From: Polytrichum commune
Lineage: Eukaryota > Streptophyta > Polytrichopsida > Polytrichales > Polytrichaceae
NCBI GenBank assembly: GCA_950295325.1
Contig: OX485803.1
Span: 53,521,554 to 53,585,553, forward strand
Reading direction: 5' to 3'
Length of the DNA: 64,000 bases
The notes beneath the pieces were generated by a model that saw nothing but the letters and a program-made list of their open reading frames with translations, was not told where the DNA came from and searched no databases. Shown here piece after piece: positions 5,246 to 62,262 of the stretch (positions are counted from its first letter, which is position 1; each line of letters begins with the position of its first letter). A program made the translations under genes and the position numbers.

Positions 5246-8200
5246 TCATTTAGCAAACCAGTATATAATGAGGAACAGTGTGCAACCAGTTATAACCCCT
5301 GCTAAAATCAGTGTATCCTTTGATCTTTTCCGCTTGATAGCACCTGCAGTCCAGAATATAATTCTCAATCAGTAGTAGCTACATTTGGCATGTCATCTTG
5401 AGAGTCCTCCCTGATATCTTGTTAGAATTGAATGAAAAAATTACAAAAATGAAAAACAAAATTGCCAACAGGTTCGCTTTCAAAGAGCAAAATGTATGTT
5501 ATTTAAACCAGTAAGCTTCACATGCTCCCCTCCAAAACAGCCTCACCTAACTGCCAAAAGTGTAACAACATGGGAAGCTAGCTGCAACTGCACCACCATA
5601 TCCCCACTCCATCTGCAGGCAACTGCAAGCTGTACAAGTAAACCAGATAGGAAAGTGTACCTAAAATGCCCCGTATTGCAGGGAATCGGTCACCCAATTG
5701 TTTTAATTTGCTTTGTACTTCCATGAAGGTCGAGCGTTGTGCTGCAAGTGCTCCTTTGGTAGCCTGGGCCTGATTGATTACCTCATCCAGCTGCACCACC
5801 ACATGATTGACTCACTACTTAGAACTGAGTGCTTGATTCATAATACCAGAACCAAAGAGACCTTGATTTGCACAAGTTGTGCAACTCAAAGACCTAGTCT
5901 AAAACCCATGACCAGTACAAAGGTAGTACATGGGCAGTGAGGGCAGGATTGAGTACCCTAGAGGCTTAGATCTCAAGAGACCTCAAGAGATAGAGACACT
6001 GGAAGACTTACAAGTATATACCAACTGAAAGTTACTATCCAAAAAACACTCACAACTACCATAGACAGGTAGACTCATAAATCCTACTGCAAAGGGATGC
6101 TACTCAACAATGGTGGACCATTTAGTTCATTAGCAGATTAACTACCTGAGCAATGTTTCCATGAATAGCTCCACGCTCTCTCAGCAAACTAGGTCCTGGA
6201 GATAGACTTCCTGATGCCTGAAACATAGTATCCACCATGTGTAAATGAGTTGAAGTCTGAAGTTGAAATCAAACATCTGATTTTAAAATTCCATCATAGT
6301 TACAGAAGAAAATTCAAGTGAGGAGGTGAATAAGTTATACCTTGTACTCACTAATGTCGTTGCGCACAGAAGTTAAGAGCTCTGCATGCTCCCTCATTGA
6401 GCTTATATTGTTCCTTGTCCGTCGGAACTCCTGACAATTAAACCCAAGTACAGACAAATAAGCTTGTTGATGTCAAAAATATATATGCAGTCAAATTAAG
6501 TTGATACAATATGAGGGTAATCAGAGAAATTATCCATCTTAGTACATGAACGACTGGTACTGAGGGAAATCAACTTGACATTAAGTTAAGCTGTACAGAG
6601 TAGCACTCACCGGTGCAGAAGTCAAACTTAATGCAGTCCTCAGCTTGCAAACTTTACTAAGCATATGTAAAGATTCAAGATGAAAAAACCAAAGTAGAAA
6701 TGCTACCTCTTATACTACCGTGTGATGGTCACCTTAAAAGAAAACCTAGTTATATGATTAATTTCAATGCTCATTGCCAGAATATACACAGAAATACTTA
6801 CACATGTATATGGTCCAAATATGTGTCATCCTTGACATCTACACCAACAAATAATTTCTCATGACAATGAAAAAAGTGTAACTAGTCATTTCGCATACTG
6901 AAGAGTCCAGATACAAACCTGTGTGAACTCATGCAGGATATCTCGATGTCGAGCAAGCTTCTGTGTCACTGACGTGGTTGAAGTAGCACCAGCTACACAG
7001 CGGCTCATTGCATCATTGACATCAACAAGCTTCTCCAGCAGAGATTCAATCTCCATCTCCATAGACTTCCATGACCCATCCCCTCCGACATCTCCTGAAA
7101 ATTCCACATGAAACAGTTGTGTTTGAAAGTCCAAGACTACCAAAGCCAAGTCTCCACAATGAAACAAGTACTCAGCTCACAGGTGGATGATTCCCAACCA
7201 AATGAAAACAAAATTACAACTTGGGATGAGTTTGTAAACTAACTTATGATGAAGTAAGGATCCTACATTGGACTTGAGGTGCATAAAGAGAGGATTTCTA
7301 ATCAGAAATTTCAGGTTCCCAATTAATTTGTCAGTCTGCTCAATATGACGCCTGAAGTAACTTGGAAGGTAATATAAAGACTAGAACCAAGTGAGCTAGT
7401 AACTTGTAGGATGATAACAGAGGGGCCCCTGCACTGCAAGCTATTGGGCTTTTGGCATGGGCATGCTCTCCACGTTCTTAATGTCAATCACTTTGTTTCT
7501 GAGGTCAATAATAATATACTGGCTCTACCCAATGAGGGACCTGAAAATGAAGTCTACTGCAAAATTGATCTCCACAATAAGTGGGGATCCCAAAGACTAA
7601 CAGCCATCAACAAGATGATAGTCTGCATGTTACCAGCTCCTTATGTCTTGCAGGGCGCAAATAAGTTCCTTACATCTCAGTCTCATTATTTCGCCATAGT
7701 TATTAGACTGCATACAGAAAGAATTGTCTTGACTGCTCTTTCAAAAGTAGTAGGTAAGCAGTCCAGCTGAATCTAAACAGCACCATAGCCACATTGTTAC
7801 CAAAATGCACGAGCACCGCTTCTCTAAATGGCCAGAGTATCAGGGGTTTGGTGGCATCAACAAGAATGGCAGTTTTCACATACTACCCCATCAGAAGCTG
7901 TACTTTTTTCCTGTACTTAGATTGAAACCTTCTTAGATGTGTGAAATGTTGCTGATCAAATGGCAGCTATCATTCGACACCTGCAGGCGTTGTTACCAAT
8001 AGTAGTAGGACAATAAGGGGAACATTATTTCGCCATAGTTATTAGAGTACATACAGAAAGAATTGACTTGACTGCTCTTTCAAAAGTAGTAGGCAAGTAC
8101 TCCAGTTGAATTCAAACAGCATAATAGTCACATTGCCACCGAAATGCACGAGCACCTCTCCTCTAAACGGCCAAAACATCAGGGATTTGGTGGCATCGAC

Positions 8201-8453
8201 AAGAATGGCAATTTTCACATACTACCCGATCAGAAAATGCACATTTCCCTGTACTTGAATTAAAGCCTGCTTAGGGTGTATGAAATGGGCCGATCAAGTG
8301 GCAGCTACCATTCAACATTGAGGGGGAGAACTGACCTCCATGTGCAAGCATGCCTCCAACTTTAGCATAGGAGGACAGTTTCACATCAAGATCTCCTTCA
8401 ATCTTCCGTGCTTCTTTCCGAAGGTCCTCCCAGCCACCATCACTCGCTTCCAT
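5246..8453 (-). CDS. GOS1: Golgi SNARE, GOS28/Gos1 family (Qb-SNARE)
   Basis: A membrane-anchored Qb-SNARE that drives vesicle fusion in ER-Golgi and intra-Golgi traffic. Exons: 8453-8336, 7094-6919, 6430-6341, 6217-6146, 5790-5661 and 5343-5246; all introns are GT-AG and the phases close, giving 227 residues, normal for the family. The N-terminus MEASDGGWEDLRKEARKIE matches the plant GOS11/GOS12 start (WDALRKQARKIE type). An N-terminal helical region is followed by the SNARE motif at about 140-200, including NIAQLDEVINQAQATKGAL and the central-layer Gln170 in AAQRSTF. After basic AIKRKRSKD a single C-terminal membrane helix spans about 207-225, ending YWFAK. Earlier in-frame ATG codons exist at 8474, but homologous proteins start at the chosen Met. 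Intron 1 contains a tandem duplication of about 339 bp. Confidence 0.96.
7685..8331. repeat. Tandem duplication in intron 1 of the Golgi SNARE gene
   Basis: Unit A (7685-8023) and unit B (8024-8331) both begin ATTATTTCGCCATAGTTATT and share GCACGAGCACC and TTTTCACATACTACC in order. The offset is 339 bp. Unit B ends 4 bp from the exon 1 splice donor. Confidence 0.9.
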
Positions 8454-11690: not shown

Positions 11691-13032
11691 AGTTCCAATG
11701 GGTTAAATATATGGGTGATCCCTAATGTCTCACTATTTTATTCACCTTTTGATGCCTAATATGGACCACATGGACTCATGGGAGCATGTCAAACACCAAA
11801 TATGTTGTGTTACATGGCTTCAAATTCTCAAATTTCAATGCTTCAATTTGATATATCTCATTTTCATGAGCTTCAAACGAACCTATGACTGCAAGAATGT
11901 ATTCTACTTACGATTCTTTACAACATAATTATAAATATTGTCAGTTCCATAAAACACTATTATGAATCTGAATAATGTTATGAACTTTGTACTCGAAGTA
12001 ATAAAAAAGAATTAAAGTGGTTTTGTGCTTTATTCTAGTGCACTAAGCAACACCTCAAGCTACTCCCTCGATGGTTCCAAATAAGACCTCCCCACAATTG
12101 CTTTGGAGATGGTGAAGGTTCAAACCCAAGCTTCCCCGCAATATGTAGATGCAAATACATGAGTGTCGTCCAGACCTATATGACTCTCATCATCAACTTG
12201 AAAATTCACTTTTACTCCTTCCGAATGCACATAACATTACTCAACACTTAGTGCTCATTCAATGGGCCCTCAAATTTTAACAGTCGGATGTTCGAAAAGT
12301 TGTGCAAGGAGACTCAACTTTTAACTGAGCTCCCGACATCCCATTGTTATATTACGAGGGCCCAGATCGACGAGTATTGTTATGCACTACTATAGTAATA
12401 ACTTAGATTAATTTTTGAATCTCAAAGGTATTGTGCCCTGTGTCACACAATGGCCTTTAGTTGGAATAGTTGAGAAAGATGATGAGACATGAGGAGGAAA
12501 AAAATCTCAACATGCAAAGTGGCTTAGAAACTGACAAGGTTGTTTCTTCTCCAAAAAGAAATAGGCAAGTGAGCTCTTAGATTGACGTGGTCAAAGCTAC
12601 TCATGAAATGAGGAGTCTTGATTGGAAGATAACTCAAAGGTCAAATAAAAACGTACCATGTGAGTGGGGATAAATGAAAATTAAATGCACAAAGTTGCAC
12701 AAACGTTCGTCCCCCTTTGGAGGAAACAACCCGGGAGCCTACAAGGCCATAGATGCATTGTTTTTTCTTTGGAGAATTTCCACGAAATTCCAACCTCGAT
12801 ATTGTTTAAGGAACGTCTAGTAGATATTCTTGATGTTTTCATGGATGAAATAACCAAATGACTACCCAAAATGGATGGGATCACCAAGTTTTGGATGAAC
12901 ACATTTGTTCTCATCTTTAAAATTCGTTCATGATCATAAAGCACTTCCTTGGAGATTTGAGGCATTTTGCTTGCCACCCTCTCACATGGACTCACTACAA
13001 ACAAGGAACGGGGAAAACTAAGCGCTAATTAC

Positions 13033-13200
13033 AAATGAACCTGTTGAGTTTGAGAAATAAGCTGTTGAACAAACTAGCCGATCATTTTAGAGGAATCTGT
13101 AGAATATTCCTCATACTAATAAAGAAAACCCGAAACATGTCAACTTGTAGTCCCGGTTGGACTCGGAAAGACTAGGACCTTGACCGATTAAGTCATGCCA
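13033..13200 (+). repeat. Dispersed repeat family B copy
   Basis: Shares the order ATGAACC-GTTGAGTTTGAGAAATA, TTTTAGAGGAATCTGTAGAA, TAATAAAGAAAACCCGAAA, GGTTGGACTCGGAAA and ACCGATTA with copies at 30706, 31316 and 32699. No coding capacity; possibly part of a retroelement terminal region. Confidence 0.65.
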
Positions 13201-14169: not shown

Positions 14170-16619
14170 ATGTCAATTTATCATTCTTTGGAAATGGAGA
14201 CCCGAAGTGATCCACGGCCACACGCAGTGTTGTTTCCATTCCCAGCACTGGGCCATGTTCGGCCCATCATGCAGTTGGGGCAGCTCTTGTCCCATGTCCA
14301 CGGTTTCCGGGTCACCTTGGTCAACACCTCGTACATCCACAAGCGCTTGGGCTACCAAAATCACATGTGAGTTCTGTGTTGCATTCTTTCTTTCTACTTA
14401 GCATTTGGATTCGCAGATTGCTTCGAATGAATATAATTCGACGAAAATCCAAGGACATGGTTGACAGCAATTTAGGTATTTCAAAACACCCAAAGCTTGA
14501 TGCAGTATGAATCAATTGCTACAGATCAATCTCCTTGCAATTGAGAGATCGACTGTGATAGTCATTCTAAAGGCCCTGAAGAGTATGATTTATGGTCAGT
14601 CTGAGGTATAGAAGCCAAGATTCTACTTGTATCTGTATCTTCTGGACATATTTTCCAAGCCTCGGTACTCTGGTCTACTTAGTACTTGGATTCGCAGATT
14701 GCTTCGAAGGAATTTAACTCGAGAAGAATCCAGGTGCATTGTTGACAGCAGTTTAAGTATTTCAAAACAACTAAAGGTTGATGCAGCATGAATCTTTTGC
14801 TACAGAATCTCCTTGCATTCAGAGATCGGATTTGGTAGTCATTCTACAGGCCTCAAGAGTATGACATCAGACGGTCAACCTGAGGCAGAAAAGCCAATAT
14901 TCTACTTGTGTTTGCGTCTTCCCCAGTATTGAAACAAACAAAGATCGATGCAGTATAAAATGGTTAATTGCTACAGAATATCTCTTTGCAATTAAGAAGT
15001 CATCATTTAAAAAGGCCCTCAGAGTCTGATTGGTGTTCAATCTGAGGCAGAAAAGCCGAGATTCCACTTACGTTCGTGCCGTCTTGATATTTTTCCAGTA
15101 CTCTTTTTGGTCCACAATGCAACATACTGGAAGTGATTGAATCAAGTATGCATATCTGTCTATATATATAGTTTTATAATCTCTATACAATGGTGATTGC
15201 AGGGAACCCAGCGACAATGGCCTGCACTTTGTAGACATGCAAGAGGGCTTCCCCGACGAGTTCTACACTTTCACAAGAATCATGGCCCTGTTCGAGGCAT
15301 GTGGAACTTTAGGACCGGTGATCGAAAAGCTAGTGGGCAAACTGACCTTACTCGAGGCTCTGCCTATTACGTGTATCATATCTGATTTTAACATGGTCGA
15401 ACCTCACAAGGCAGCGATCCATCTCGGCCTCCCCACAGTGGCATTTTCCACCCAGAGTGCACTTGCCCTGAGTGCGAAGTACTATTGTCATCGGCTTGTT
15501 GGCGAAGGGCTTTTACCCTTACCCAAGCCAGCTCCAACGACAGACAGAACCTTAGCAAAAGATCGTGTGCGAACCTTGCACCAAATTCCCAGTGCGGAGG
15601 AATCTGCCGCGTTTGCACGAGAAGTGACATGTGTACCTGGAATGTACCCCGTACCCCTCGGAGACTACTTTTCAGCTCTCTTGGTTCATGATCTCTCCAA
15701 TTACTTGTTTCAATTTTTCTCATGTGTGCAGATGGAGAGTTTACGTAACCGAGACTGGATCCTTATGAACACATTTCACGAACTGGAAGCTCCCATCATC
15801 GATGCGTTCCAACAAGACACAGGTATAAATCTGACCACCATCGGTCCCCTCGTTGCCGTCGACATGATCAACCATCCTGAAGGAGGAGCCAATTCTGACA
15901 ACAACAACAACAACAACAACAACTCCTCAGATCTGACTCACACAGGCAGCTTTTGGCCGGTGGAGGAGAGCAAGTGCATGGCATGGCTGGACAAACATAA
16001 CCCTAAATCTGTCATTTATGTCTCCTTCGGTAGTTTGATGCATGTGACCATAGACAAACTCCAGGAATTTGTGCTTGGGCTGGAGGATTCTCAAGCGCCG
16101 TTCCTGCTCGTCCTCCGACCTAATGTGGTCGACGGAGGACGCCAAAATGCGGTCAGTGAAATTCTACCTCCGGGGTTTGAAGAGCGTACCAAATCACGGA
16201 GCTTGATTGTCTCATGGGCTCCTCAGCTCAGAGTTCTCGGTCACCCTGCAACAGCTGGGTTTGTAACCCACTGCGGGTGGAATTCCATGCTTGAGAGCAT
16301 CTATATGGGTATTCCGATGCTGGGATATCCCATCGCTGCCGATCAGCCCATAAACAACAGGTATAATGTGAGTGTGTGGAAGCTAGGGATAGAGTTTGAG
16401 AGGCAGCCTGGTGGGATCCTCGACAGGCACGAGGTGGCGGTTAAGGTGAAGGCTTTGTTGATGGCCAAAGAAGGAGGGTTGACAGCAAGAGCACTTGCTT
16501 GGAAAGAAGTTGCACAGAAAACGGTAAACAAAGGAGGCTCTTCCTACCATAACACAGCTGCATTTGTTGCAGACATGTTCCGAAGAGCTCAAGGAGCTTC
16601 ACTTTCAACTTCCAAGTAG
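14170..16619 (+). CDS. UDP-glycosyltransferase (family 1, plant PSPG type), 2 exons
   Basis: Transfers a sugar from a UDP-sugar to a small acceptor in the cytosol; the acceptor cannot be told from sequence. Exon 1 is 14170-14366 and exon 2 is 15203-16619, joined through a phase-2 GT-AG intron; 537 residues from 14170, or 529 if Met at 14194 is used. The N-terminal [20 protein letters not shown] carries the conserved acceptor-side catalytic His after the first strand. The 44-residue PSPG donor-binding box (16215-16346) starts [12 protein letters not shown], has [10 protein letters not shown] in the middle and ends with the Asp-Gln pair typical of UDP-glucose users. The protein is longer than the usual 450-500 residues, partly through an Asn-rich insert coded by an AAC microsatellite (about 15899-15923). 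The intron carries internal tandem repeats, and decayed copies of the gene's 3' end follow it. Confidence 0.95.
14400..15065 (+). repeat. Tandem repeat in the glycosyltransferase intron
   Basis: Units start at about 14401 and 14684 (TTGGATTCGCAGATTGCTTC in both), an offset of about 283 bp. A third, internally deleted unit covers about 14930-15065 (GATGCAGTATAAA, GCTACAGAAT, TCTGAGGCAGAAAAGCC). Confidence 0.85.
15899..15923 (+). repeat. AAC microsatellite inside the glycosyltransferase coding region
   Basis: Eight or so AAC units code for a run of Asn. It lies in a surface-linker position before [20 protein letters not shown], so its length may vary without harm. Confidence 0.9.
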
Positions 16620-28251: not shown

Positions 28252-28656
28252 TATGAGTTTAGGGAGGCACCACGGGCCTTGGCTTGGTGGTTAGGGCTCA
28301 TGGCCCCCAATGAGGAGGTTGTGGGTTCTATTCCCCATGCCGGCGTGGTGCTCACCACCTTAGTCCACCCAACTATGCTGGGGGGTCCTTGGACCTTGTT
28401 GTATGGGTACCTCAAAGCCCTTTGGGGGGATACCATGTCCGGTATCTTCAAGGCACTAGTGGCTAGCTAGGAACTAGTATAGTGTGTCACTATAGTGCCC
28501 ATCCTCGAAAGGGGAGAGTAGTATTGCCCCAATGTCCCCTTGTCCGGTGGGCATCGGGTCATTGACATTACGAACGGACACTTTATTCACGCCGGCCCCT
28601 TGCTAAAAAGGGATCGGAGTTTCTATCTATCTTTCTATCTATCTATGAGTTTAGGG
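28252..28656 (+). mobile_element. tRNA-derived-like SINE, copy 1, with target-site duplication
   Basis: Body 28265-28643 (379 bp), flanked by perfect 13-bp duplications TATGAGTTTAGGG at 28252-28264 and 28644-28656. Near the 5' end a tRNA-like head carries an A-box-like TGGCTTGGTGGTTAGGG (about 28280-28296) and a B-box-like GGTTCTATTCC (28324-28334), one base off the pol III consensus. The 3' end is a TCTA simple-repeat tail. The apparent open frames across it are by-products. It is nearly identical to the copy at 61868-62262. Confidence 0.92.
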
Positions 28657-28676
28657 TCCCCACTGTGGCACTGTAA

Positions 28677-29014
28677 TATCGTAGCTCTCTAGCAGCTCGG
28701 GTAGAAAACAATTAATTAGAAAGGTGCCTAAATTGATGGGAAATTGAATTCGTTGAGTGTCTAAAAAAAACATTTAAAGAGTGTTTAGAATCACAATAAT
28801 GCAAGTGACGTTCATCGTAGCCGCTATAGATGAAATTAGGTAAACCATCCATGAATTATAAAAACAACTTGGATGAATGTCTAACTTATTTTAAATTACT
28901 TCTTGAACCTGCCCAATTTTTGAATATTATTATTCTCCGGGTTGCCTAACTTACTTTCGCACATTAAATAATTATTAGGCAAAAAGGTGCCCAAGCTGCT
29001 AGAGAGTTCCGGTA
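28677..29014. mobile_element. MITE family D, copy 1 (TA target duplication)
   Basis: Element 28679-29012 (334 bp) between TA dinucleotides. The left end is TCGTAGCTCTCTAGCAGCT; the right end read in reverse is CCGGAACTCTCTAGCAGCT. No coding capacity. The TA duplication suggests mobilisation by a Tc1/mariner-like transposase. It is related, in reverse, to the nested element at 61033-61446. Confidence 0.85.
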
Positions 29015-30990
29015 TTTCTAGGAGCCAATGGCAATTTGATATGTCATCATGGCCCCAACTTTTACAATATGCTCACCTCTTTCTGATGGGCCCCACACAA
29101 TGTCCGGTAGACCATGAAACATTATCCACTTGGTGCCATGTAGAATTTTCATCCATTCAAATTTCGTTGATTGATCGGACCTTCAAGGTCTAGTCTATAT
29201 AAAGTGAACTCGAACCATCCCCGATCACATAAGTTGTATATGACGGGTAAAGGGCTCTCAAGTTTCTACTGTAAAGTGGCCTTTTGCTGGGGTATTATTA
29301 CCAAGTTTCAAAGCATGTTCAATCCGGAACGTATGGAAGATATTAACTTGTCATCCAAATAATGGTGCCACCACATGAATTATTCATCCACTTTTCCATA
29401 TGTCGCCATGCAAGTCCTAGCCTTCAACCCCGGAAGCGGACTCTGCAGATGGCACCAACTCCTGCATTCCTCAAAAGTTCATTGTTTGTCTTTTTGAAAA
29501 AAATTAAAATATATATATATATGCTCATTGCTTTCAACTTTAAGATTATTTAGATGCGAGGCCCGTTCATTGGGGGTCCATGCATTGAAATTTAGGTATA
29601 CTTGGACAAATCGCATGTCAAACAACATGAACAGAAGCAACAACACAACGACCATAACTTTGAATGTGTTGTATTTCGTGTTCGTCCTCCATTGAGTTTC
29701 ATGTTCAGTGTTGCGATCTAGTGTACGTCATATTGGTAGTTCGAATTGTCCAAAAGTCACGCCTAAATCCAACTAGACTTAAAACCCTAGTTCCCACTTG
29801 TTGTCAACTTCCCACAATCATGTCTCGGGATTCACATCCAATAGACGCTCGGTCTGAATTTGAAACTTCCCCAAGGCGTTCATTGCCTACGATGCTCGGT
29901 GTCTTCCCCGTGTGTCAGTTTCCACCCACCCTGCAGATCTGGGCATTTGCAAGCACATGCTTGACTTGGAACCTACGGTATGTGCCCCACCTGCAACATA
30001 CAGATGTGACAGACCCATGATCACCATCATCTCTACCATCACATGTAAATGGAATCCAACGACCCATGAATGCACCGTTGGGCCCCATTATTGACGACCT
30101 ACCACTATGTCTCTCAAGGGGTTTAGGATGTGGTTGTTATGGGTAGAGGCATGCCATTGACATATGGATTGTCTAGCCATCATGATGCAAAAAAATACAT
30201 GTTAATTGGCATTATTTGAGACTCATAACGTATTCCACTGAACATAGTTGTTTGTTTAGTGGGCACCTCCAAACATGCCACATGATTCAATATTGTTAAT
30301 TGCTATTGAATCTCATCTTCCCGTAAATGTAATGTCTATTTTTCCATGTGCCATACATCAAGAGTCCATTGAATGGTGACCATGGTTTACGGTGTTATGT
30401 GGATGCATGTACTATATGAACCAAAATAATCGATATGTGTGTATTTGTTCCTATACGTTTCAATTCGTATTTTCCAAATCATGCTCCATCGTAAAGTGGA
30501 TTGCTAATCACGTCACTTTGATTATCGATACATGTTTGGGGTAAATGTATGAAATTTTGGTGCTTCTTGTAGAATATACGTAATCACCATACACAAATCA
30601 AAGACTTGGACTGAACATGACTTAAAATAATGGATGTCCCATGTGTCCCATGCAATAGCACTAGAAGAATACTTGTCCATTGCAGCCATTCATTGCAGCT
30701 TGGCCATTGCAGATGAACCAATTGAGTTTGAAAAATAACCGGTTGAATTTCAAGACTTCGAGAGAATTACCAAGCATTGTTGAGGAATATGTGGAATATA
30801 CTTTGAATCAATAAAGAAAACCCAAACAATGCAACCGGTTGGACTTGGAAACACTAGGATTTTGACTGAAGTTGCCCAATAACATCCTCGGAGACTACTT
30901 CAATTGGGGGGGGGGTTTATTTCCCCTGCCCCACAACTTGAAGATGCTTGGATTTAGTGGCACTTGGAAGCAATAACCGGAGAGAACCAA
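29015..30990. other. Gene desert
   Basis: AT-rich sequence with an (AT)n run at about 29509-29522 and a family B copy at 30706-30880. Short open frames at 29664-30094 show no recognisable domain. Confidence 0.5.
30706..30880 (+). repeat. Dispersed repeat family B copy
   Basis: Contains AATAACCGGTTGAATTTCAA, GAGGAATATGTGGAATATAC, AATAAAGAAAACCC and ACCGGTTGGACTTGGAAACA, in the family order. Confidence 0.7.
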
Positions 30991-30992
30991 CC

Positions 30993-31315
30993 ACTACACT
31001 AAAAAGGATATTTAGTGTTTGATACACTAAATACGAACCCATACACTGAATGTCCATTACCCTATGAAAGCAAGTAACATCAAATGTAAACTCGAATACT
31101 AAACATCAACTATGGTAATATGTGGAAGTTACATGTTTGAATTTAGTGTTAATAAGGATATGAAAAAAGAAAAAAGAAAACTAACAATGATAAAAGGAGA
31201 ATTCCAGCGTATCTTCTAACACTAATTGTCATGGAATTGAAAATTAGTGTTGAGCAGGGTAGGGTGGTAACAACATTCAATATAATCAAACATTGAACAT
31301 CATATTTAGTGTAGT
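30993..31315. mobile_element. MITE with perfect 11-bp inverted ends ACTACACTAAA
   Basis: ACTACACTAAA at 30993-31003 and its exact reverse complement at 31305-31315 bound a 323-bp AT-rich element with several internal ACACTAA/TTAGTGT words. A family B copy begins immediately after it. I see no clear target-site duplication. Confidence 0.65.
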
Positions 31316-31500
31316 TACAAATGAACCAATCGAGTTTGAGAAATAGCTGGTTGAAGTTCAAGACTTTGGGAAAATTACCCATCGTTCTAGAGGAATCTAT
31401 AGAATATACCTCACATTTTATAAAGAAAAACCGAAAGATTCGAACACGTAACTGGTTGGACTGGAAAACACTGGGACTCAACCGATGATGCCCCAAAAAT
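31316..31500 (+). repeat. Dispersed repeat family B copy
   Basis: TACAAATGAACCAATCGAG, then GAAATAGCTGGTTGAAGTTC, TTTATAAAGAAAAACCGAAA and GGTTGGACTGGAAAACACTG, in the family order. Confidence 0.7.
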
Positions 31501-31768
31501 CACTGGCTTGGAAGTTGGAAGTTGAGAAATTTGGGGGAAGTGAATCCCGGTAAGCTAGGTATGCCAAAGTCGGACTTCGTTTTTGACTTTGCTACCCATG
31601 GCCATGGTCAACAACAATTGCTCCGTCACCAACTTAACTTAGACAAAAACAAGCCTTCAATGTCACTTATAACAACAATAACTTAATGCCATCTATGCAT
31701 TGATGAGGTAGCTTTTTCTTCAACCCTTGGGTCCAAGTCGCTAAAGGCCACTACACTAAATAGTTCTA

Positions 31769-32698: not shown

Positions 32699-32890
32699 TT
32701 AGTTATAAATGAGCCGGTTGAGTTTGAAAAATAACCGGTTGAAGTTCAAGACTGCAGGAAAATTATTGTTCATTTTAGAGGAATTTATAGAATATGCCCT
32801 AATTTGATAAAGGAAAACCGGAGGATGTCAACATATAACCGGTTGGACTTGCAAACATTAGGATCTCAACCAATTATGCCCAAAAATTCT
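32699..32890 (+). repeat. Dispersed repeat family B copy
   Basis: AAATGAGCCGGTTGAGTTTG, AATAACCGGTTGAAGTTCAA, TAACCGGTTGGACTTGCAAA and CAACCAATTATGCCC match the other three copies. Confidence 0.7.
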
Positions 32891-35800
32891 CCCCGATCAC
32901 TAGTCATTGTAAAGAAGACGCATTATTTTATCACCTCTCGTTAATATCATAGTGATGATGTTTGTCACTTGCAATGTTTTGGAATCTTGCAGCTTGAGTT
33001 AGTTGAACAAAGAAGAAGAAGAAACGCTGACCCCTGATGGGATCTGTTAGTTGAATAAAACTTATAGCGAATAAGTTGTGTGTTCAAATGACGACAATAT
33101 TTCAAATTCTGTTCACAACACTTACCCTCGTGGAGGATGAAACCGTTGAGAGCATTATGTAGAGCCTATATGTATGGATTGTTATATAAAGGCGTACTAA
33201 CACTTAACTTAAGTAAGAGGCCCCGAATTAGCCCATTAAGAGTACAATAAGACGAACCGATAATAACCCTATAGAGGCCATGTTTGAACCACCCGTAATG
33301 ATAGGTGTTGGAAAACGAAATCCGATGACTACACTATATGTGACCAAGGCAACTCTTACTATTGCTTTTGAGTTAGTTAACTTAAAGCAAGCATATCGTT
33401 ACGATGCTTATGATTTTCATATTCTAAAAGCCATGCCTTTAGGCAAGGAGGACTATGATGATAATCAGTGTCTAGGGATATTTTTGGGCATAATCAGTCA
33501 AGATTCTAGTGTTTTCAATATCAACCAGTTACATGTTGAGATCTGATGGTTTTCTTTATTAGATGGAGGAATATTTTGTGAATACCTCTAGTAGTTTTCT
33601 CATATTCTTGAATTTTAACGGATCGTTTCTCTAACTCAACTTGTTCATATGTAACTACACTAAATAGTGAGTTTAGTAACACTTACTATTTGAAATTACG
33701 CCATGTTATATCTATAAACTGTATATCTCATATTCTACCAACACATGTCAAATTGGTTGTTTAGACATCATAAGACATTAGCAACGTCACTTGGTAAAAC
33801 AAACACTTCACTAGTAAAAATATATAGCAATGTGTGAACCTCACTAAATAGCACCTTGCCAAATTGTAGAGCTGATATTCACAACGACTTTGATGTGCAA
33901 ACATAGCACCACGTTTATTGGACATACTTAAATAACATTCTTATGTTATGATGAATGAAAGACGGCGTGGAGATGTCTAAATGCTTCATTGTGTATCTCT
34001 CTATACGGTGGTCTCACCTATTCCTAACATTTTTGTGAGTTTGGGTACTTAGAGTAGTATGGTTCATGTGGCAATTGTTTTGACATGTTCACGTTTCAAA
34101 TCGTATTCATGTCTCACGGGATGAATCCAAATACTTGAGCAATACCTTGATTGCTTATGGAATTTCTAAGTGAAGTTATTCAAGGATCCATTATGATCAC
34201 ATAGGGACATACATTTGTGTTACCCATCTATGTCCAGCCCCACCTTTTGCATGGGACAAAATGAACCTTCGATGACTTATTTCATAATGGTTTGGCCTAA
34301 GACCTCGTGATTGTGAGAACGTGGGACCATAAGTGACATGCCAATCTTCATGTACTCAATGCTTTATATGATACATTTTAAGAAAGTTTAAATTGATAGT
34401 ATGTGGCCCTACCCATGTTGGAGTCTCCACTCACTTGTCTCCATCGTGATGTGCTAAGCAAGGGACTTGTTGTGTGTGCACACAGGTCAAGCTATGCCTC
34501 CACTTGGCTTTTATATTTTTCAAAACCATGTGAGATATCATGCACTCTGTCCACTTTAGACTTAATTACACTTGTTCATAATAGGTCACAACCAAAATAA
34601 ATGCACCCACATTGTACATGTTTTGGATCTTGTCGTTTTTGATGGGATTGAGAATCATTCACAGTAAGGTAGCTCAACCTCACACCAACGCCGAGCTTAT
34701 GACCGTGCAAACGAAGGGTGCGCCTTCATGTTGTAGCATTGATTCAATATCTCCAAAGATTTGGGTCATGATATGATAATTTATACTCAATATCGCTTCC
34801 ATTTTCATTATGTCTCAAAGCATAACCTTTTTGTTACTACACTTTGTTGGGCAGTGCCTTTAACCCCATAAGGTTTACCAAAGATTAATATTGGTTGGAG
34901 GTTTTTGCATATTGGGATTGTTGAACCATGGCTATTGTTGTTGGAATCACTCGTAGCTAGGAAAATGTGTGTATAGGTGCCACTTGTCCTCTATGTTTAT
35001 TAGGAAATGTAATTACTGAAAACCAACCTTGGGGCATTTTGAACATGCTAGGATTGTATGTACGAGGCCAACAATTCAGCTCGATCCATATGGAATGACA
35101 TGGACACATGTCAGTGCAATGACAAGCCGAGTCGGTCACATTTCACATCGTTGTTATGTGACTTACTCAAGTCTCCCTCTCACACCTTGGTGCCCTTGGG
35201 GTCGTTTTCACAGGCCATGGCTACATCATTGTTATTTTATGATATCATGGTCACCTTCCAAGCATGTGAAAATGCACTCATGCATCCATAATCATGTCGT
35301 TGTTCTTGCACCCAATGTAGAATGTTGCACATGCATGTGTAATGTCGCCCATGTATTAGTAACTTAGACTATTCCATCCATGATGGAAATGCTAAGGAAG
35401 AGGTTTTATCCTGAGGCCTAGCTAGGATCCTGTAGATTATGGGATGGCAAAGATCAAGTACTTATGGCCTTGCTCCTATGGCGAATGACTTACAAAAGAG
35501 ATGAAATGGCCCTTTACACGTGTCTTAAACTTATCTCTAATTGTATGCGAATAACATAATCATTTTAACATGCCATGCATTTCTCTGCATTCACATTGGG
35601 GATTGGCCCTTGGCCTTTGGCTTTTCGGGAGTCCCACCGCATAGAATTGACAATTTAGTATATTTAGATAAACTACTTGTAAAAAAAAAGGGAATCTGCA
35701 CTTGTGGGGGCAAAAACATCAAACGACGATAATAAAAAGCAACAACACATCAACCGCAACTTTGAATGTTTGTATTCCATGTTCACCAACCACCATGGTT

Positions 35801-37436: not shown

Positions 37437-40400
37437 ATGTCTGCACTTCGATCGCCGGGTTCTTCGATTGGATTGAAGGCACCACAATTGCGGCTTGAGA
37501 GCGAGGCCTGTAATTGAATTTGGGCGCAATTGCAAATTTCCCACACTGTCATTCAATCCTCAGAAATCATGGTCGAAGATCATTCTGCTTAAGGTGTGAG
37601 ACTGCACCGCATTTGTTGTTGACCTTGAATTTCGTGTCTTTCAGCAATCGGGACAGTGTTTGTCAATTATGCTATCTCAAATTGATAAAAAGAAGACGGA
37701 GAAGAAGAAGATCAGATTGAGGGGATTTTGAGGTGGTTTTCTTGTGGATTTTTAGGGTTTTAAGGTTACGCTCGAGGTGGATGATTGCTTCGATGTGAAT
37801 GAGTTGATGGATGCTCCCTAATTTCGTTTCTTTCAGCAATCGAGGCATTTTTTTTTTGGTTATCTAAATCATCCGAAAATGATCAATATGTCAAAATCCA
37901 GTATCGGCGTAAGTGTAATTTGAGGTGGTTAGGTTGGTGTGGATTTTTAGGGTTGAGGTTCTCAGGGTTTAAGATCGAGGAAATAAAGGAGATGAACGAG
38001 CTGTTAACAGCTTGGAGCTGAGCGATCAGATGGGAAAATTTGGAGAACTTCTTTGGAATATTGAAGAACATGTGCACATTTCTGGTTATGTGGGTCATGG
38101 GAAAATGATTAAAATGTCAGAACCCAATACATGATTGAGAGTAATTTGAGGTGGTCGGGTTGGGTGGATTTTTAGGGTTGAGATTCTCAGGGTTTAAGAT
38201 CGAGGAACAGCGGAGATGAATGGGCTGTTAACAGCTTGCTTGGGGTTGAGGCATTAGGAGGGAAAATTTGGAGAAGTGCTTTGGAGCATCGAAGAACATG
38301 TTGAGTAAGTTCTGGTGACTCTTGAAGTGAGAGAAATGAAGAGCAGCGGGAGCGAGGGATTGGCGGGGCACCCGCACCGCGATCCATTTAAAACCTCAGG
38401 TTAATATTCACAACGTCCTCACTCCTCCATGAAAATTGTCTGTGGTCAATTTCACCTCCCTTCTACACAATGTCACACAAAATACGTCGTGAGGACACAA
38501 ACAGAATTTGAGTAGATTTTGGACAAGTATCATAATTCTTTCTGGTTTACGATTCCTCAATATTACTGTTAAACGTGGGTTCTGGTATTGCCAACTATTT
38601 GAACCTATAAGAATCCCAGTATGTCTGGGTAGGTAGTGGAACTTCTGGCATGGTTGTGTGCCTTTACATATTAGCGATGCAGCGAACCCCAAGCATATTC
38701 TTATAAGTGCACAATCGGTCACGATTGTCGAGAAATATTATCTGCTTTCCAGATTTTCATACACTACACCTGATGTTAAAAAAAGTGGTTGCCTTCATCT
38801 GAAAATCTCCAGATTCTCTCTCTTCTTCTTGTCAACTCTTTCAACAAGAGTTCAGTGTTATGTCTAATACCTAAAGCAGTTGCAAATTTCTCTACCTTGA
38901 AACATTTGTTGTGAATGTGTGTTTCCTTATAACTGGGTGATGCGCTCTGACTTGCTTGTTTTGCTAAGGTGATTGCATTCGGTACTCTCAGTAACTTTTC
39001 AGTCCCCATAACTACAAAGTAATTTGATTTTTTACAGTTGGGAAGGTTGCTGGGCAAAGACGACGACAACAAGCTCTAACAGTAGGAAAGGACAGACGGG
39101 AGTCCGTGGTTCGGGCGAAGCGGTTACGAAGGGCAGACCCTGCAGAGCACGGGAACGACAGTGGTATCCAGCTTGGGGCTGTTGGCATAGATGACGATGC
39201 AGCATACAAAATTCTGGAAGAAAAAACTGTGGCTGCTGTCCACAATCTCAAGAACTTGTATGCTTACCTCTGGCCGTATTTTGGTCCAACTCAATCTAAC
39301 CTAAATATATTATGTTATTGTTGGTGACCTTATTTCTCTATAACATATTGTTGGTGACCTCTACAAGTCCAGACTGATTCACTTGAGAGAAGATCATTGG
39401 CTGCGTGGCTGCTAGTATTCAGGCCTCTCATTTCGAGTAATAGAAGCAATGGTTTTTAATTGATTCCTCCTTAGAAGGTATTCGTTGAGCATGTTTAAGA
39501 AGTTGCCATGCACCTTCTTGCAAGCACACTCTAGCCCTCCAAAACATTGTTTCTACACACGTCCTAGTTGAACAAGTTTGTGTGGACTTTAGGTTATTAA
39601 TGTCTTCAACAGCATTACTGATGAGGTCCACATCTAATTGACTCTCATTTTGGCTGATTTCCAGAGGGAAAGGGACCGCTGCAAAGAAAATAGAAGCATT
39701 GCAAAGTTTGAGGCAGCTTTTGTCATGCACCGCATTCCCGCCGGTCCATGTTGCTGTGCAGGCTGGTGTGGTGCCCCTTCTTGTTGATTGTCTGGCATTT
39801 GGTGCCTCTGATGATCAGGTTAACCTTTCAATCTTTAGCAAGGATACTTTCCCTGACTTATTTGTCTATTTATCTATTCAACTGGAGTTGTTGGTTAAAA
39901 ATGTCAGCTGTCCCCTGCTTTCCACTTCTTTCAAGACTGTGCTGTCTGTAGAATTTTGGGTCATAAATACATTTTTGGTATGAATGGCAGCTGTTTGAGG
40001 CAGCATGGTGCTTGACCAATATTGCATCCGGAGATCCAGAACAAACGTGTGCTGTTGTGCCAGCATTGCCACTCCTCATCCTTCATCTTGGAGGTCAGGG
40101 TTTTGCTGATTGGAACTTGGTGTGTCTAATTTGCAGTCTTTCAGAAAACTAGGCTAAGAAAGGATGTAATGCATGGCCCCTGTAGGCTGTGAAGTCCTTG
40201 TGCTTTTAAGCATGTTACTGCCCTTGTTGTTGCAAGAATGAAAGGAGGAAAAATTAAATAGAGATGTGATGTGAATATATGGTTTTTGTAAGGACAGGAA
40301 AAAGTGCTATTCATGTGGTTGAGCAGTGTGCTTGGGCACTTGGTAATGTTGCTGGAGAAGGTGAAGATCTTCGTGATGTTTTACTCCGACAAGGAGCACT

Positions 40401-52554: not shown

Positions 52555-55500
52555 TTAAGCAGATTTACAATCTAAGGGTGCGAATCCAATTTGCTTGTTC
52601 TGCACGTCATAAACAATGTGGTAGTTCTGTTGCTGGATGTTCCCGAAGATGGCGAGGAACTGAGATGTGCTTTCCACTGCCAGGCACATGGTGTTGGCTT
52701 CCATGAGCACAAATGTGTTGGCCAATGGCAGAGCCAAGTTGACGCCGTCAAGATGGATTGTCAGGGTCGGGAAAGTTGGGGATGTGTCCTTGCTTGTGTT
52801 GAAACAAGTGCTCAGTCCCGAGCTTGAAGTTGTGGTAGGATATGTCACTTGGGCCTTGTATGCCTGCAGCATCACATCCGAGAACACGAAATATGAATGA
52901 AGGTATATAGCAAATCATCATTTCCAAATCTGCCCTAAATCTGCAATGGCGATGAATTACAAATCTAAGTAAGGCTTAAGTGAATTCCGCTCGCTGGCCT
53001 CATCTTTCCAAGAATATTTCTCCTCTTCGTGAAACAATATACCATCAATTCATTAGAAGCATGCTAAGAAGATGGATTGAATTTCACACACCGTCACAAC
53101 AGCGTTGTAGGCTGAGGATTGGAGGTAGGTGATGGTGGTCCCGGAGTCGATGATGGTGCCGCCGGAGCCAGAAGAGCTGATCTGGAACACTTTGGGGTCG
53201 ATGGACAGCTTCGTGGTGCCCACACTGAGACCCGTAATGCCAATGTAATAGTAGGTTGGGTAGTTGGCATTGGCGATGATTGGCGTGTATTTGATGCTCG
53301 ACGCCATAGCTGCGGGCACTGCAGCGTCGCCGAAGTACATTGAGCTCGTCGTTGTGGTGCCGGCAGATAGCCAGTCCACCATGCAGTAGGAGAATTTGTT
53401 CCCGTAGAGTGAGCCTAACTGTGAGTTGTAAGAAACTGGGCCTTGACCTAACCCCAGAATTCCTTCGCCTCCTGTCTGCCCGAATGTGCCCGTGTTGTAG
53501 TATCCGCATCCGAATGCAAACCCATTGATCTGCATTCACACAAACCAAAGGTGCGTAAATTCATTTAATTCCTCTCAACTTGTTCTTCGAAGTAGGATAT
53601 GGGGTAATTCTCTCAACTTCAAGAGTCGTTGCAGCCATGTGAGCAAAAAACATTCTGCGAGCACGATTCATGGCCATCTACATTCTAACTTCCTTCCTCC
53701 ATCCTCATACACGGATTACCTACAGCGTTGTCTCCCTATCTAATTGCTCCACAACTATAAAGCCTCTCTCCGCCTACAAACTGTATCTGGTAAGAAATTT
53801 ATGTAAAAGCCATCCTCTCAAAACTTTCCAAGCACCCCCACCCCATTCCACCCAAATTATGAAAGTATAATTCCCTACTGAGATTCAAGGCAGTGACAAA
53901 CAGTCCGACAAACTAACCTTGTGAAGTTTTTTTATTATTATTATTTAATTTTTAAATTTATTTAATTTTTAAAGTCAATGGTGTTCTGATACACATCTTC
54001 AATCCCACCCCACATCAATCAGGAACATGGTCTATCCAACAAGCTGTACATTCAACATGAACTGGGAGCTGGAAACAACCAATTTGCACAGGAGGAACGT
54101 GATTCCAGCAGATTACCTGGGATTTCATCAATCAGGCACAGAATTACTGAATTTAAAATGCACTGCGAACTGGAAACAATGAATGTGACACTGGAGCTTA
54201 TAATTTAGGGCATTATCGCAGCAGTAGTTTTACCGCAGATTTGCCACCGGTGGTAAGGGCCGCGGTGGTGGTCTCGGTGGAGAAGTAGCCTTGCGTCATG
54301 GAGCCATCGCCGTAAGCGTACCCGTAAGAGCAAGTGCTCGAAGAGCAGGTCTGGCCCAGCAAGTCTCGGCACCTGGCAGTGGAGCAAGAGAGGCGTTTGT
54401 AAGTGGAAGATTTGGAGGGATCAAAAACAGGGTCCGTCTGGGCGAAGCAGGAAGTGCAGGGCTGGCATTGCAGCCACGTCAGGTCACTGCCGGTGTCGAT
54501 GATGATGCTGGCCTTCTGTGGAGGAGTGCCCAGTTCTATGGGGACGATGAACTCTCCGTTTCCAGCTGACTCCGGAAACTGGTAGGAGGGTAGGGAGCTC
54601 CCGAACTTGATGGATTCCCCGGATGATACCGCCTCGTCATCATCCTGATGCAGTAACATCAAGATCATCTTATCAACGGTGTATGCTTAGAATTAAAACT
54701 GATCACTATTTGGCATACAAAGCAATGCAATCTTCAATCTTCCTCAACTTTCTTTATCCAAGTCTGGTTTGAGAAACGATTGTAAACATTGTCGCAAATA
54801 ACTTTTGTGTAAATTCCATTGCAAAACCCTTCAAAATCCGTTGGAAATTGGACACTTAGATTGCCAGCATGAGCGTTTATTTAGCTGATGCTGCCTTTGT
54901 GATCGGAGGCATTGCAACCCGGTTGTTGTAATCGACAACCTATTTGGCGTTAAGTGCAATGCAATCTTCAATCTTCAACAACTTTTTCCCTGTCCAAGTC
55001 TGGATGGAGAAACTGTTGTACCATTGTTGCAAATTAGGATTGAGTGAAAATTCCATTGCAAAAACCTTCAAAATCAGTGTAGAATTGGATGTTTTGAAAG
55101 CTGTAGGGGCGTTTGTTTAGCTGATGCCGTCTTCGTGATCGGAGAACATCGCAACACCAGATGTTGTACATAATTGCGGATCTATTTTGTGGCGACCATT
55201 GCAAAAACCAACATAGTTGTTACTACAGTTCTGTTGTTACTGTTGTCCAAGAGTGCGCTAGTCTAACTCCGAGTAAATGTTTCCAGAGGCTTCATGATGC
55301 CATCATTGTTGCAACTCCAGAGCTGACCCTTATCCAGGTTATGACAATCTATGCATCCAGCTTAAAGTGAGGTGAATTCCAAACTGCATGAAATTAGTGA
55401 AGAAACTGCAATACTATGCCTAACATTCATTAATTAGTGATTTATTATCATGCAAATGAATCAAATTTAACAACTTGAGTAATTAGGTTGCCATCAAGCG

Positions 55501-60750: not shown

Positions 60751-61487
60751 CTACACTAAATATTGTATTTAGTGTAGTATGGTAGTTTATGTCACTGTGG
60801 TAACTTTCGTAATGACACTTCTTATGAATAAGTTTACGAATATTGTCATTCCAATTTACTCTTAGTTCATCCACGTTTGGTATGTTCTGCATGCTAACGA
60901 AGCACAGTCACGGATGAATGAAATTTGGATGAAAAAACCACTAAGGAAATGGCTGTAATTGCAACATTGTAAAGCTACAATGTCCGACAAATCTATAAGA
61001 TATGACAAATATTGTTAGGTTTACAATGAGTACCGTAGCTCTCTAGCAACTTGGGCACCATTCTGCCTAATAATAAAATTAAAGTGCAAAAGCAAGTTAA
61101 GCAGTCCATAAAATAATATTCTAGAATTGGGCAGATTCAAAAGTAATTTAGAATAAGTTAGACAATCATCCAAGTCATTTCTATAATCCATGGATGGTTT
61201 CTCTAATTTCATCTATGGCACCTACGATTAACCTAAACATTTCCCTCAACCAACCTCCCTTACCCTATGAATGCCATTGATGCTACTTTGTTGGATTCCA
61301 GCGAACGTCACTTGCATTATTGTGATTTTAGACACTCTTTGAATGTTACTTCTTTCTTTTTTGGACACGCAACGAAACTAATTTCCCAAAAATTCAAACA
61401 CCTTAAAAATTAATCATTTTCTGCCTAAGCTGCTGGAGAACTATGGTATTAAGCAAGACAAATGGAATTGGTGACACTAAATACAAT
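60751..61487. mobile_element. MITE family C, copy 3, split by a family D MITE
   Basis: Left part 60751-61030 begins CTACACTAAATATTGTATTT; right part 61449-61487 holds AATTGGTGACACTAAATACA ATATT. Between them lies the family D element. In copies 1 and 2 the two halves are contiguous, with the interior reading GGTTTACATTTTAGTATTG in the reverse of copy 2. Confidence 0.85.
61031..61448. mobile_element. MITE family D, copy 2, nested in MITE C
   Basis: Element 61033-61446 (414 bp), flanked by TA at 61031-61032 and 61447-61448. Left end CCGTAGCTCTCTAGCAACTT; right end in reverse CCATAGTTCTCCAGCAGCTT. The interior is the reverse complement of copy 1 over GTCACTTGCATTATTGTGAT and neighbouring blocks. 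Confidence 0.88.
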
Positions 61488-61867: not shown

Positions 61868-62262
61868 TACCGTAGAGGGTGAGGCACCAGGGGCCTTGGC
61901 TTGGTGGTTAGGGCTCATGGCCCCCAATGAGGAGGTTGTGGGTTCTATTCCCCATGCCGGCGTGGTGCTCACCACCTTAGTCCACCCAACTATGCTGGGG
62001 GGTCCTTGGACCTTGTTGTATGGGTACCTCAAAGCCCTTTGGGGGGATACCATGTCCGGTGTCTTCAAGGCACTAGTGGCTAGCTAGGAACTAGTATAGT
62101 GTGTCACTATAGTGCCCATCCTCGGAAGGGGAGAGTAGTATTGCCCCAATGTCCCCTTGTCCGGTGGGCATCGGGTCATTGACATTACGAACGGACACTT
62201 TATTCACGCCGGCCCCTTGCTAAAAAGAGACCGGAGTTTCTATCTATCTACCGTAGAGGGTG
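61868..62262 (+). mobile_element. tRNA-derived-like SINE, copy 2, with target-site duplication
   Basis: Body 61882-62248 (367 bp), flanked by perfect 14-bp duplications TACCGTAGAGGGTG at 61868-61881 and 62249-62262. It differs from copy 1 at only a handful of positions, with a shorter TCTA tail. A-box-like and B-box-like words are at about 61897-61913 and 61941-61951. Confidence 0.92.

Follow-up and report, generated by a model that had tools for sequence, protein, structure and literature searches.

The occurrence of two nearly identical short elements with TCTA-type tails in a 64,000-nucleotide stretch of Polytrichum commune DNA (the whole of which is referred to here as the window) raises the question of how such an element is copied and inserted in a plant genome, and of which LINE provides the enzymes for it. 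The element, its boxes, its tail and both duplications were all found where the initial annotation of the window had placed them (Table 1). Copies 1 (28265-28643) and 2 (61882-62248) both lie on the + strand and differ at 5 of 368 aligned bases, with no gap. Each is bounded by a perfect duplication, TATGAGTTTAGGG for copy 1 (13 bp) and TACCGTAGAGGGTG for copy 2 (14 bp, the first T of which could equally be part of the tail), and neither word occurs again in the 64-kb window. When 20,000 random boundary pairs of the same spacing were drawn from the window and compared at 7x7 offsets, a 13-bp match was obtained once and a longer one never. The different perfect duplications, together with the few differences between the copies, bear out the earlier proposal that the two were inserted independently. 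The TCTA tail described at that time is indeed present, with a correction as to its composition: the 12-mer TTTCTATCTATC appears twice in the tail of copy 1 and once in that of copy 2. As for the coding capacity that had been named as an argument against a SINE, none of its reading frames stays open over the full length of the element, and the body is non-coding.

Table 1. Features of the two SINE copies in the window (positions counted from its first base).
Feature	Position	Strand	Remark
5' target-site duplication, copy 1, 13 bp	28252..28264	+	Same as 28644-28656; absent elsewhere in the window, both strands
SINE copy 1 body, 356 bp	28265..28620	+	End-to-end homology to 39 other retrieved copies
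A-box-like word TGGCTTGGTGG	28280..28290	+	7/8 positions scored against the consensus
B-box-like word GGTTCTATTCC	28324..28334	+	8/9 positions scored against the consensus
LINE-related 3' region, copy 1	28485..28620	+	Alignment to LINE 3' ends
Terminal hairpin, copy 1	28589..28620	+	Same structure in both LINE subfamilies (1 and 2) and in the sister SINE
TCTA-type tail, copy 1, 12-mer duplicated	28621..28643	+	
3' target-site duplication, copy 1	28644..28656	+	
5' target-site duplication, copy 2, 14 bp	61868..61881	+	
SINE copy 2 body	61882..62237	+	363/368 bases identical to copy 1
Tail, copy 2	62238..62248	+	
3' target-site duplication, copy 2	62249..62262	+	

Dispersed copies of the SINE

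As had been proposed with the initial annotation, the genome was searched for further copies, using an assembly of 407.8 Mb in 64 contigs (C1 to C7 account for 406 Mb, and the window lies on C1). The best 40 of 1747 first-look candidates were scored, 1747 being the number of candidates and not a copy number; all 40 were near full length, with an identity of 98.0-100% to the majority sequence, and one additional partial match was listed. Thirty of the 40 copies were read as loci (one of them window copy 2) and nine more were fetched. The listing of flanks comprised 41 rows, in which L017 and L040 are the same place, and the counts were redone on 40. In a comparison of 31 copies, the mean distance to the majority sequence was 0.94%, and three copies on different contigs (L002, L005 and L006) were identical to it over 356 bp and carried different duplications; the distances of window copies 1 and 2 were 0.84% and 1.69%. 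As the listed copies are those closest to copy 1, this low divergence is biased and understates that of the family. Near-identical copies dispersed in this manner agree with the recent insertion claimed earlier; their near-identity suggests that the family is also active.

A duplication of at least 9 bp flanks 38 of the 40 copies (the best 40 of 1747 candidates); its length ranges from 9 to 17 bp and is exactly 12 bp in 20 of them. No duplication was seen at L009, and at L013 an 8-bp one was recognised by eye. The first base is T in 36 of the 38 duplications, G in one and C in one, the frequency of T in the window being 0.29; the first two bases, counted in 39 rows, are TG (17), TA (14), TT (3), TC (3), GT (1) and CT (1). 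The tail can be written TTCTATC(TATC)n, and two or more CTAT units are present in it in each of these best 40 copies; none of the 40 has a poly(A) tail, and no run of five A was found in any tail. Interruptions of the tail like that of copy 1 appear in nine rows of the 41-row listing and are compatible with slippage during priming, by which they may have arisen.

Segmental duplication, or transposition of a MITE-like DNA element, would also multiply such copies, and the surroundings of the two window copies offer some grounds for it. A MITE-like element (28675-29016) with 27-bp terminal inverted repeats (85% complementary) starts 18 bp past the 3' duplication of copy 1, an inverted relative of it (61031-61451) lies about 430 bp before copy 2, and a 53-bp same-strand match (79%) is found in both left flanks, some 1.4-1.8 kb off. 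These neighbouring repeats, however, differ in their orientation or in their distance from the SINE. In addition, the 400-bp flanks of the 40 copies yielded just two same-strand matches at E<=1e-10, both due to other repeats (one joins L004 and L029 at 70%, the other the two sides of L036 at 84%); apart from these the flanks are unrelated, and the sharing of flanks named earlier as a sign of segmental duplication was not observed. The variable length of the duplications and the ends of the SINE, which are not inverted repeats, likewise contradict an origin of this kind, which we regard as hardly credible. No exact match to the element words tried was found in viral and prokaryote-genome contigs, nor any match to the element in phage and plasmid records, as expected for a plant nuclear element; these collections may exclude records of the genome from which the window comes.

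Pol III box-like words and the SINE head

The A box occupies element positions 16-26 and the B box positions 60-70, which is the spacing of a tRNA. Scored against consensus words, the pair reaches 15 of 17; this value was attained by 2 of 500 shuffles of the head and, on both strands of the 64-kb window, by copies 1 and 2 only. No tRNA match to the head was found in Rfam at E<=10, and ARAGORN with default settings called no tRNA in it; for the element as a whole, no parent RNA was identified by Rfam (gathering score and E<=10), ARAGORN or folding. Calls made under permissive ARAGORN settings carry no weight, since 222 places in the window are called in this way. Similarly, the + strand of the element contains no run of four T, which is not evidence, as the same holds for 384 of 1000 shuffles. 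Of the tRNA-like head proposed by the initial annotation, the boxes and their tRNA spacing are retained, and a recognisable tRNA is not: a possible tRNA origin is suggested by the score and spacing of the A and B boxes only, with no cloverleaf to be recognised.

A LINE family resembling the SINE at its 3' end

A 105-bp insertion was found in the sequence flanking L013; it is bounded by a 16-bp duplication (TTTGTTGAGGATCTAT) and has the SINE-type 3' end and no SINE head. A search for LINE 3' ends was carried out with this insertion; 40 of 422 candidates were scored and 20 loci were read, among them the place from which the query came. When trimmed to the end of the 3' match, the 19 others are colinear with L049 over 104 to approximately 1600 bp (the match is in two pieces in two loci, and in some it stops where the locus ends). 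These graded lengths form a 5' truncation series as expected from target-primed reverse transcription. Two LINE copies extend over contiguous 9-kb stretches which are colinear, 93% identical and interrupted by stops. The genome holds, in addition to the SINE, a LINE family whose 3' end is built alike, with 5'-truncated copies and with endonuclease, reverse transcriptase and RNase H domains.

The endonuclease region contains the motif GDFN and was matched by Exo_endo_phos in one copy (E 6.1e-05) and by Exo_endo_phos_2 in the other (E 2.4e-04), both below the curated cut-offs. RVT_1 was found in two LINE copies (E 6.9e-10 and 6.1e-09) and RNase_H in L072 only (E 1.9e-06). Between the reverse transcriptase and the RNase H of L072 lies an open segment (L072:2827-3894) with a match to PCIF1_WW that is over the cut-off (E 1e-11); the motif [DNS]PP[YFW] does not occur in this segment. 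Frames of at least 120 codons on L070-L072 numbered 15, of which 8 were submitted to Pfam and 4 matched; 2 of the 6 upstream LINE segments submitted also matched, and six C-terminal segments gave no Pfam family.

A genome profile search with PF14529 was scored for 150 of 402 candidates, and all 150 are over the cut-off. The profile is not LINE-specific, as three of 14 prokaryote genomes used as a control also gave matches, one of them over the cut-off. All eight loci fetched through it are tblastx relatives of the LINE. Open frames of 1696 and 1017 codons contain the PF14529 matches of L064 and L068, respectively, and nine further listed matches (150 scored of 402) lie in frames of more than 2000 codons. 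If these long, endonuclease-bearing frames belong to the LINE clade, it may include autonomous elements that are still active. Compared with PDB sequences at E<=0.01, a frame of L064 matched R2 reverse transcriptases and no L1, which is a weak pointer only. In the stretches 3' of the endonuclease, taken from seven of the eight loci, a complete 3' end was found in L075 and L077; L076 breaks off within it, and no LINE 3' end was matched in L078-L081 at E<=0.01. The two complete 3' ends represent a second subfamily, LINE-2, the longer protein segments of which are about 58-65% identical to those of LINE-1.

Approximately 130-180 terminal bases are common to SINE and LINE, and comprise a conserved box, a terminal hairpin and a pyrimidine-rich repeat. 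Positions 221-333 of SINE-A, the type of copy 1, could be aligned to the LINE 3' ends in 19 of 20 loci, with 69-72% identity. A sister type, SINE-B, is represented by one copy (L017 652-1007, minus strand, with a 13-bp duplication of its own); head and middle are common to both types, whereas the last ~110 bp and the hairpin differ, the end of SINE-B being AGTTTCTCT. The local alignment scores to the LINE-1 end were 115 for SINE-A and 171 for SINE-B, the best of 200 mononucleotide shuffles reaching 42 and 46, respectively. In the terminal 47-52 columns, the identity of SINE-A is 84% and 80% with the two LINE-2 copies and 77% with LINE-1; that of SINE-B is 83% with LINE-1, and 75% and 71% with LINE-2. 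Over ~140 bp, SINE-B keeps its preference (79% to LINE-1 versus 66% to LINE-2), whereas SINE-A is 69% identical to both. The tails of the LINE copies read are TTC repeats, so that what the LINE shares with the SINE is the hairpin and the preceding box, and not the TCTA repeat. The partner LINE predicted by the initial annotation was thus found in the form of a family sharing the 3' end; no donor of the TCTA tail was found among the LINE copies read.

The terminal hairpin of copy 1 has a folding energy that is equalled by 30 of 1000 shuffles, so that the case for it rests on comparison and not on energy. The upper stem reads CCCTT/AAGGG in SINE-A and CTCC/GGAG in SINE-B and LINE-1: the letters differ and the pairing is kept. 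A C.A mismatch is present in the hairpin of SINE-A and of both LINEs, and the LINE-2 hairpin (L075, L077) has the lower stem, the mismatch and the start of the upper stem of SINE-A. The SINE-B copy carries a hairpin of the LINE-1 type, that of the other LINE subfamily. A text pattern caught 42 hairpin occurrences (L013 and L041 being the same place, and a few copies possibly missed), of which 31 have the majority hairpin; some of the variants, that of window copy 2 included, weaken the stem. A swap of SINE 3' ends between the LINE subfamilies is suggested by these comparisons; it is not proven, as the preference of SINE-A vanishes over ~140 bp.

Element positions 1-180 were also compared with the 40 LINE-related loci L042-L081 (136,682 bases, in which the loci may stop short of the true 5' end of the LINE); no match at E<=0.01 was obtained, with the exception of a complete SINE in L042. 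The head and the LINE end would accordingly have separate origins. This result, and a 3' end common to two diverged LINE subfamilies, argue that the SINE took its 3' end from the LINE, rather than the reverse. They also bear on the possibility that the element is a short, internally deleted LINE derivative with no pol III head of its own, as might be thought from its LINE-related last 130-180 bp. The unmatched positions 1-180 speak against this, as do the A and B boxes at tRNA spacing, and we consider it very improbable.

A nested arrangement was observed at L040 (3525-5650), in which another element has inserted into an older SINE copy, near element position 94-104, both halves of the SINE being bounded by its duplication word TGTCAAATATC. 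The splitting element itself contains a young SINE copy.

Proposed mobilisation of the SINE and known SINE/LINE pairs

The explanation that we consider very probably correct is that of a tRNA-like, non-autonomous SINE mobilised by a LINE that recognises its hairpin. RNA polymerase III would transcribe the SINE from its internal A and B boxes, and the LINE-derived 3' hairpin of the RNA would be bound by the reverse transcriptase of that LINE. The LINE endonuclease would then nick the bottom strand opposite a T, in most cases one with a purine after it; the 3' end released in this way would prime on the TCTA tail, and cleavage of the second strand some 12 bp away would give rise to the target-site duplication. 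The LINE family described above probably supplies the enzymes by which the SINE is copied. Transcription and recognition are inferred steps of this scheme.

An improbable alternative is mobilisation by an L1-type LINE for which no matching 3' end is needed, in which case the common 3' sequence would be only a relic of origin. Among the LINEs of flowering plants L1 is the main clade, and poly(A) ends are given for 224 of its 233 listed families (PMC3747384, Table 3 and section 4). The tails of the SINE do not conform to this, none of the best 40 of 1747 copies ending in poly(A); its duplications start with T followed mostly by a purine, not with A-runs, and the architecture of the hairpin has been retained despite different stem letters. 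The duplications of the LINE-1 subfamily are T-initial as well, in 11 of the 14 called by script (none was called in 6 of 20 loci), although this T may in part belong to the pyrimidine tail; of the three non-T duplications, one or more lies apart from the tail and is probably spurious.

Mobilisation by a hairpin-recognising LINE can be compared, by description, with known systems. In the eel UnaSINE1/UnaL2 and salmonid SmaI/SalL2 pairs, which are of the stringent type (PMC3747384 Table 1), a tRNA-type promoter region, a LINE-shared 3' end and a tail of short repeats are likewise combined; here the host is a plant, and the SINE has another tail repeat than the LINE copies read. A stem-loop is described as common in stringent-type 3' ends (PMC3747384, section 4.3). 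The same source, from 2013, counts only three SINE/LINE pairs in land plants and calls their relation controversial; the land-plant SINE tails that it lists are A, T and TTG, and other repeats are given for algal LINEs. ZmSINE2 and ZmSINE3 of maize and sorghum, with LINE1-1_ZM of the L1 clade, are similar in that ~50 terminal bases and a hairpin of a land-plant SINE are shared with a LINE; their tails are runs of T or A and their partner is an L1, in contrast to the TCTA tail and TTC-tailed LINE found here (PMC3747384, compared by description). The tobacco TS SINE with its RTE-clade LINE (PMC3747384) also combines a non-A simple-repeat tail with a LINE-derived 3' end in a plant; described as (TTG)n, its tail is unlike TCTA. 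Neither (TTG)n nor (TTGATG)n tails of the TS/RTE type were present among the SINE and LINE tails read. The Au SINE and the Angio-domain superfamily, the latter marked by a 37-bp domain at the 3' end, are likewise plant SINEs with no poly(A) tail. Au tails are (T)2-5 by description (PMC3747384 Table 2), again unlike TCTA. No TCTA-tailed plant SINE was found in a literature search of partial coverage (most subscription papers lay outside it), which is not proof of absence, and the same search gave nothing usable on SINEs of mosses, lycophytes, gymnosperms or ferns.

Plant LINEs are described as L1 and RTE (PMC9033089). A wider reading, which we put forward tentatively and judge possible rather than probable, is that a plant LINE lineage beyond these usual two, with endonuclease, reverse transcriptase, PCIF1-like segment and RNase H, recognises the terminal hairpin; that the SINE has swapped its 3' end at least once, tracking the diverging LINE subfamilies; and that its TCTA tail has evolved away from the TTC of the LINE. 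Found together in one genome are two types of SINE, two subfamilies of LINE, a hairpin that persists while the letters of its stem change, and a sharp signature at the target sites. Recognition of the 3' end by a plant LINE would thereby become directly testable, and the young insertions could be used as markers.

A scan for reverse transcriptase and endonuclease motifs in the window frames of at least 40 codons revealed no LINE and one chance-like word. The window also contains an older dispersed repeat of ~180 bp in both orientations, the copies being ~69-79% alike (13026-13190, 30706-30869, 31303-31501, 32700-32889 and 33480-33666), and neighbouring pairs of direct repeats of ~220-300 bp, 77-85% alike (7684-8317, 14393-14921, 37853-38301 and 54706-55168). 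DUF568 and TAXi domains are encoded in it as well, and their distribution points to a land plant.
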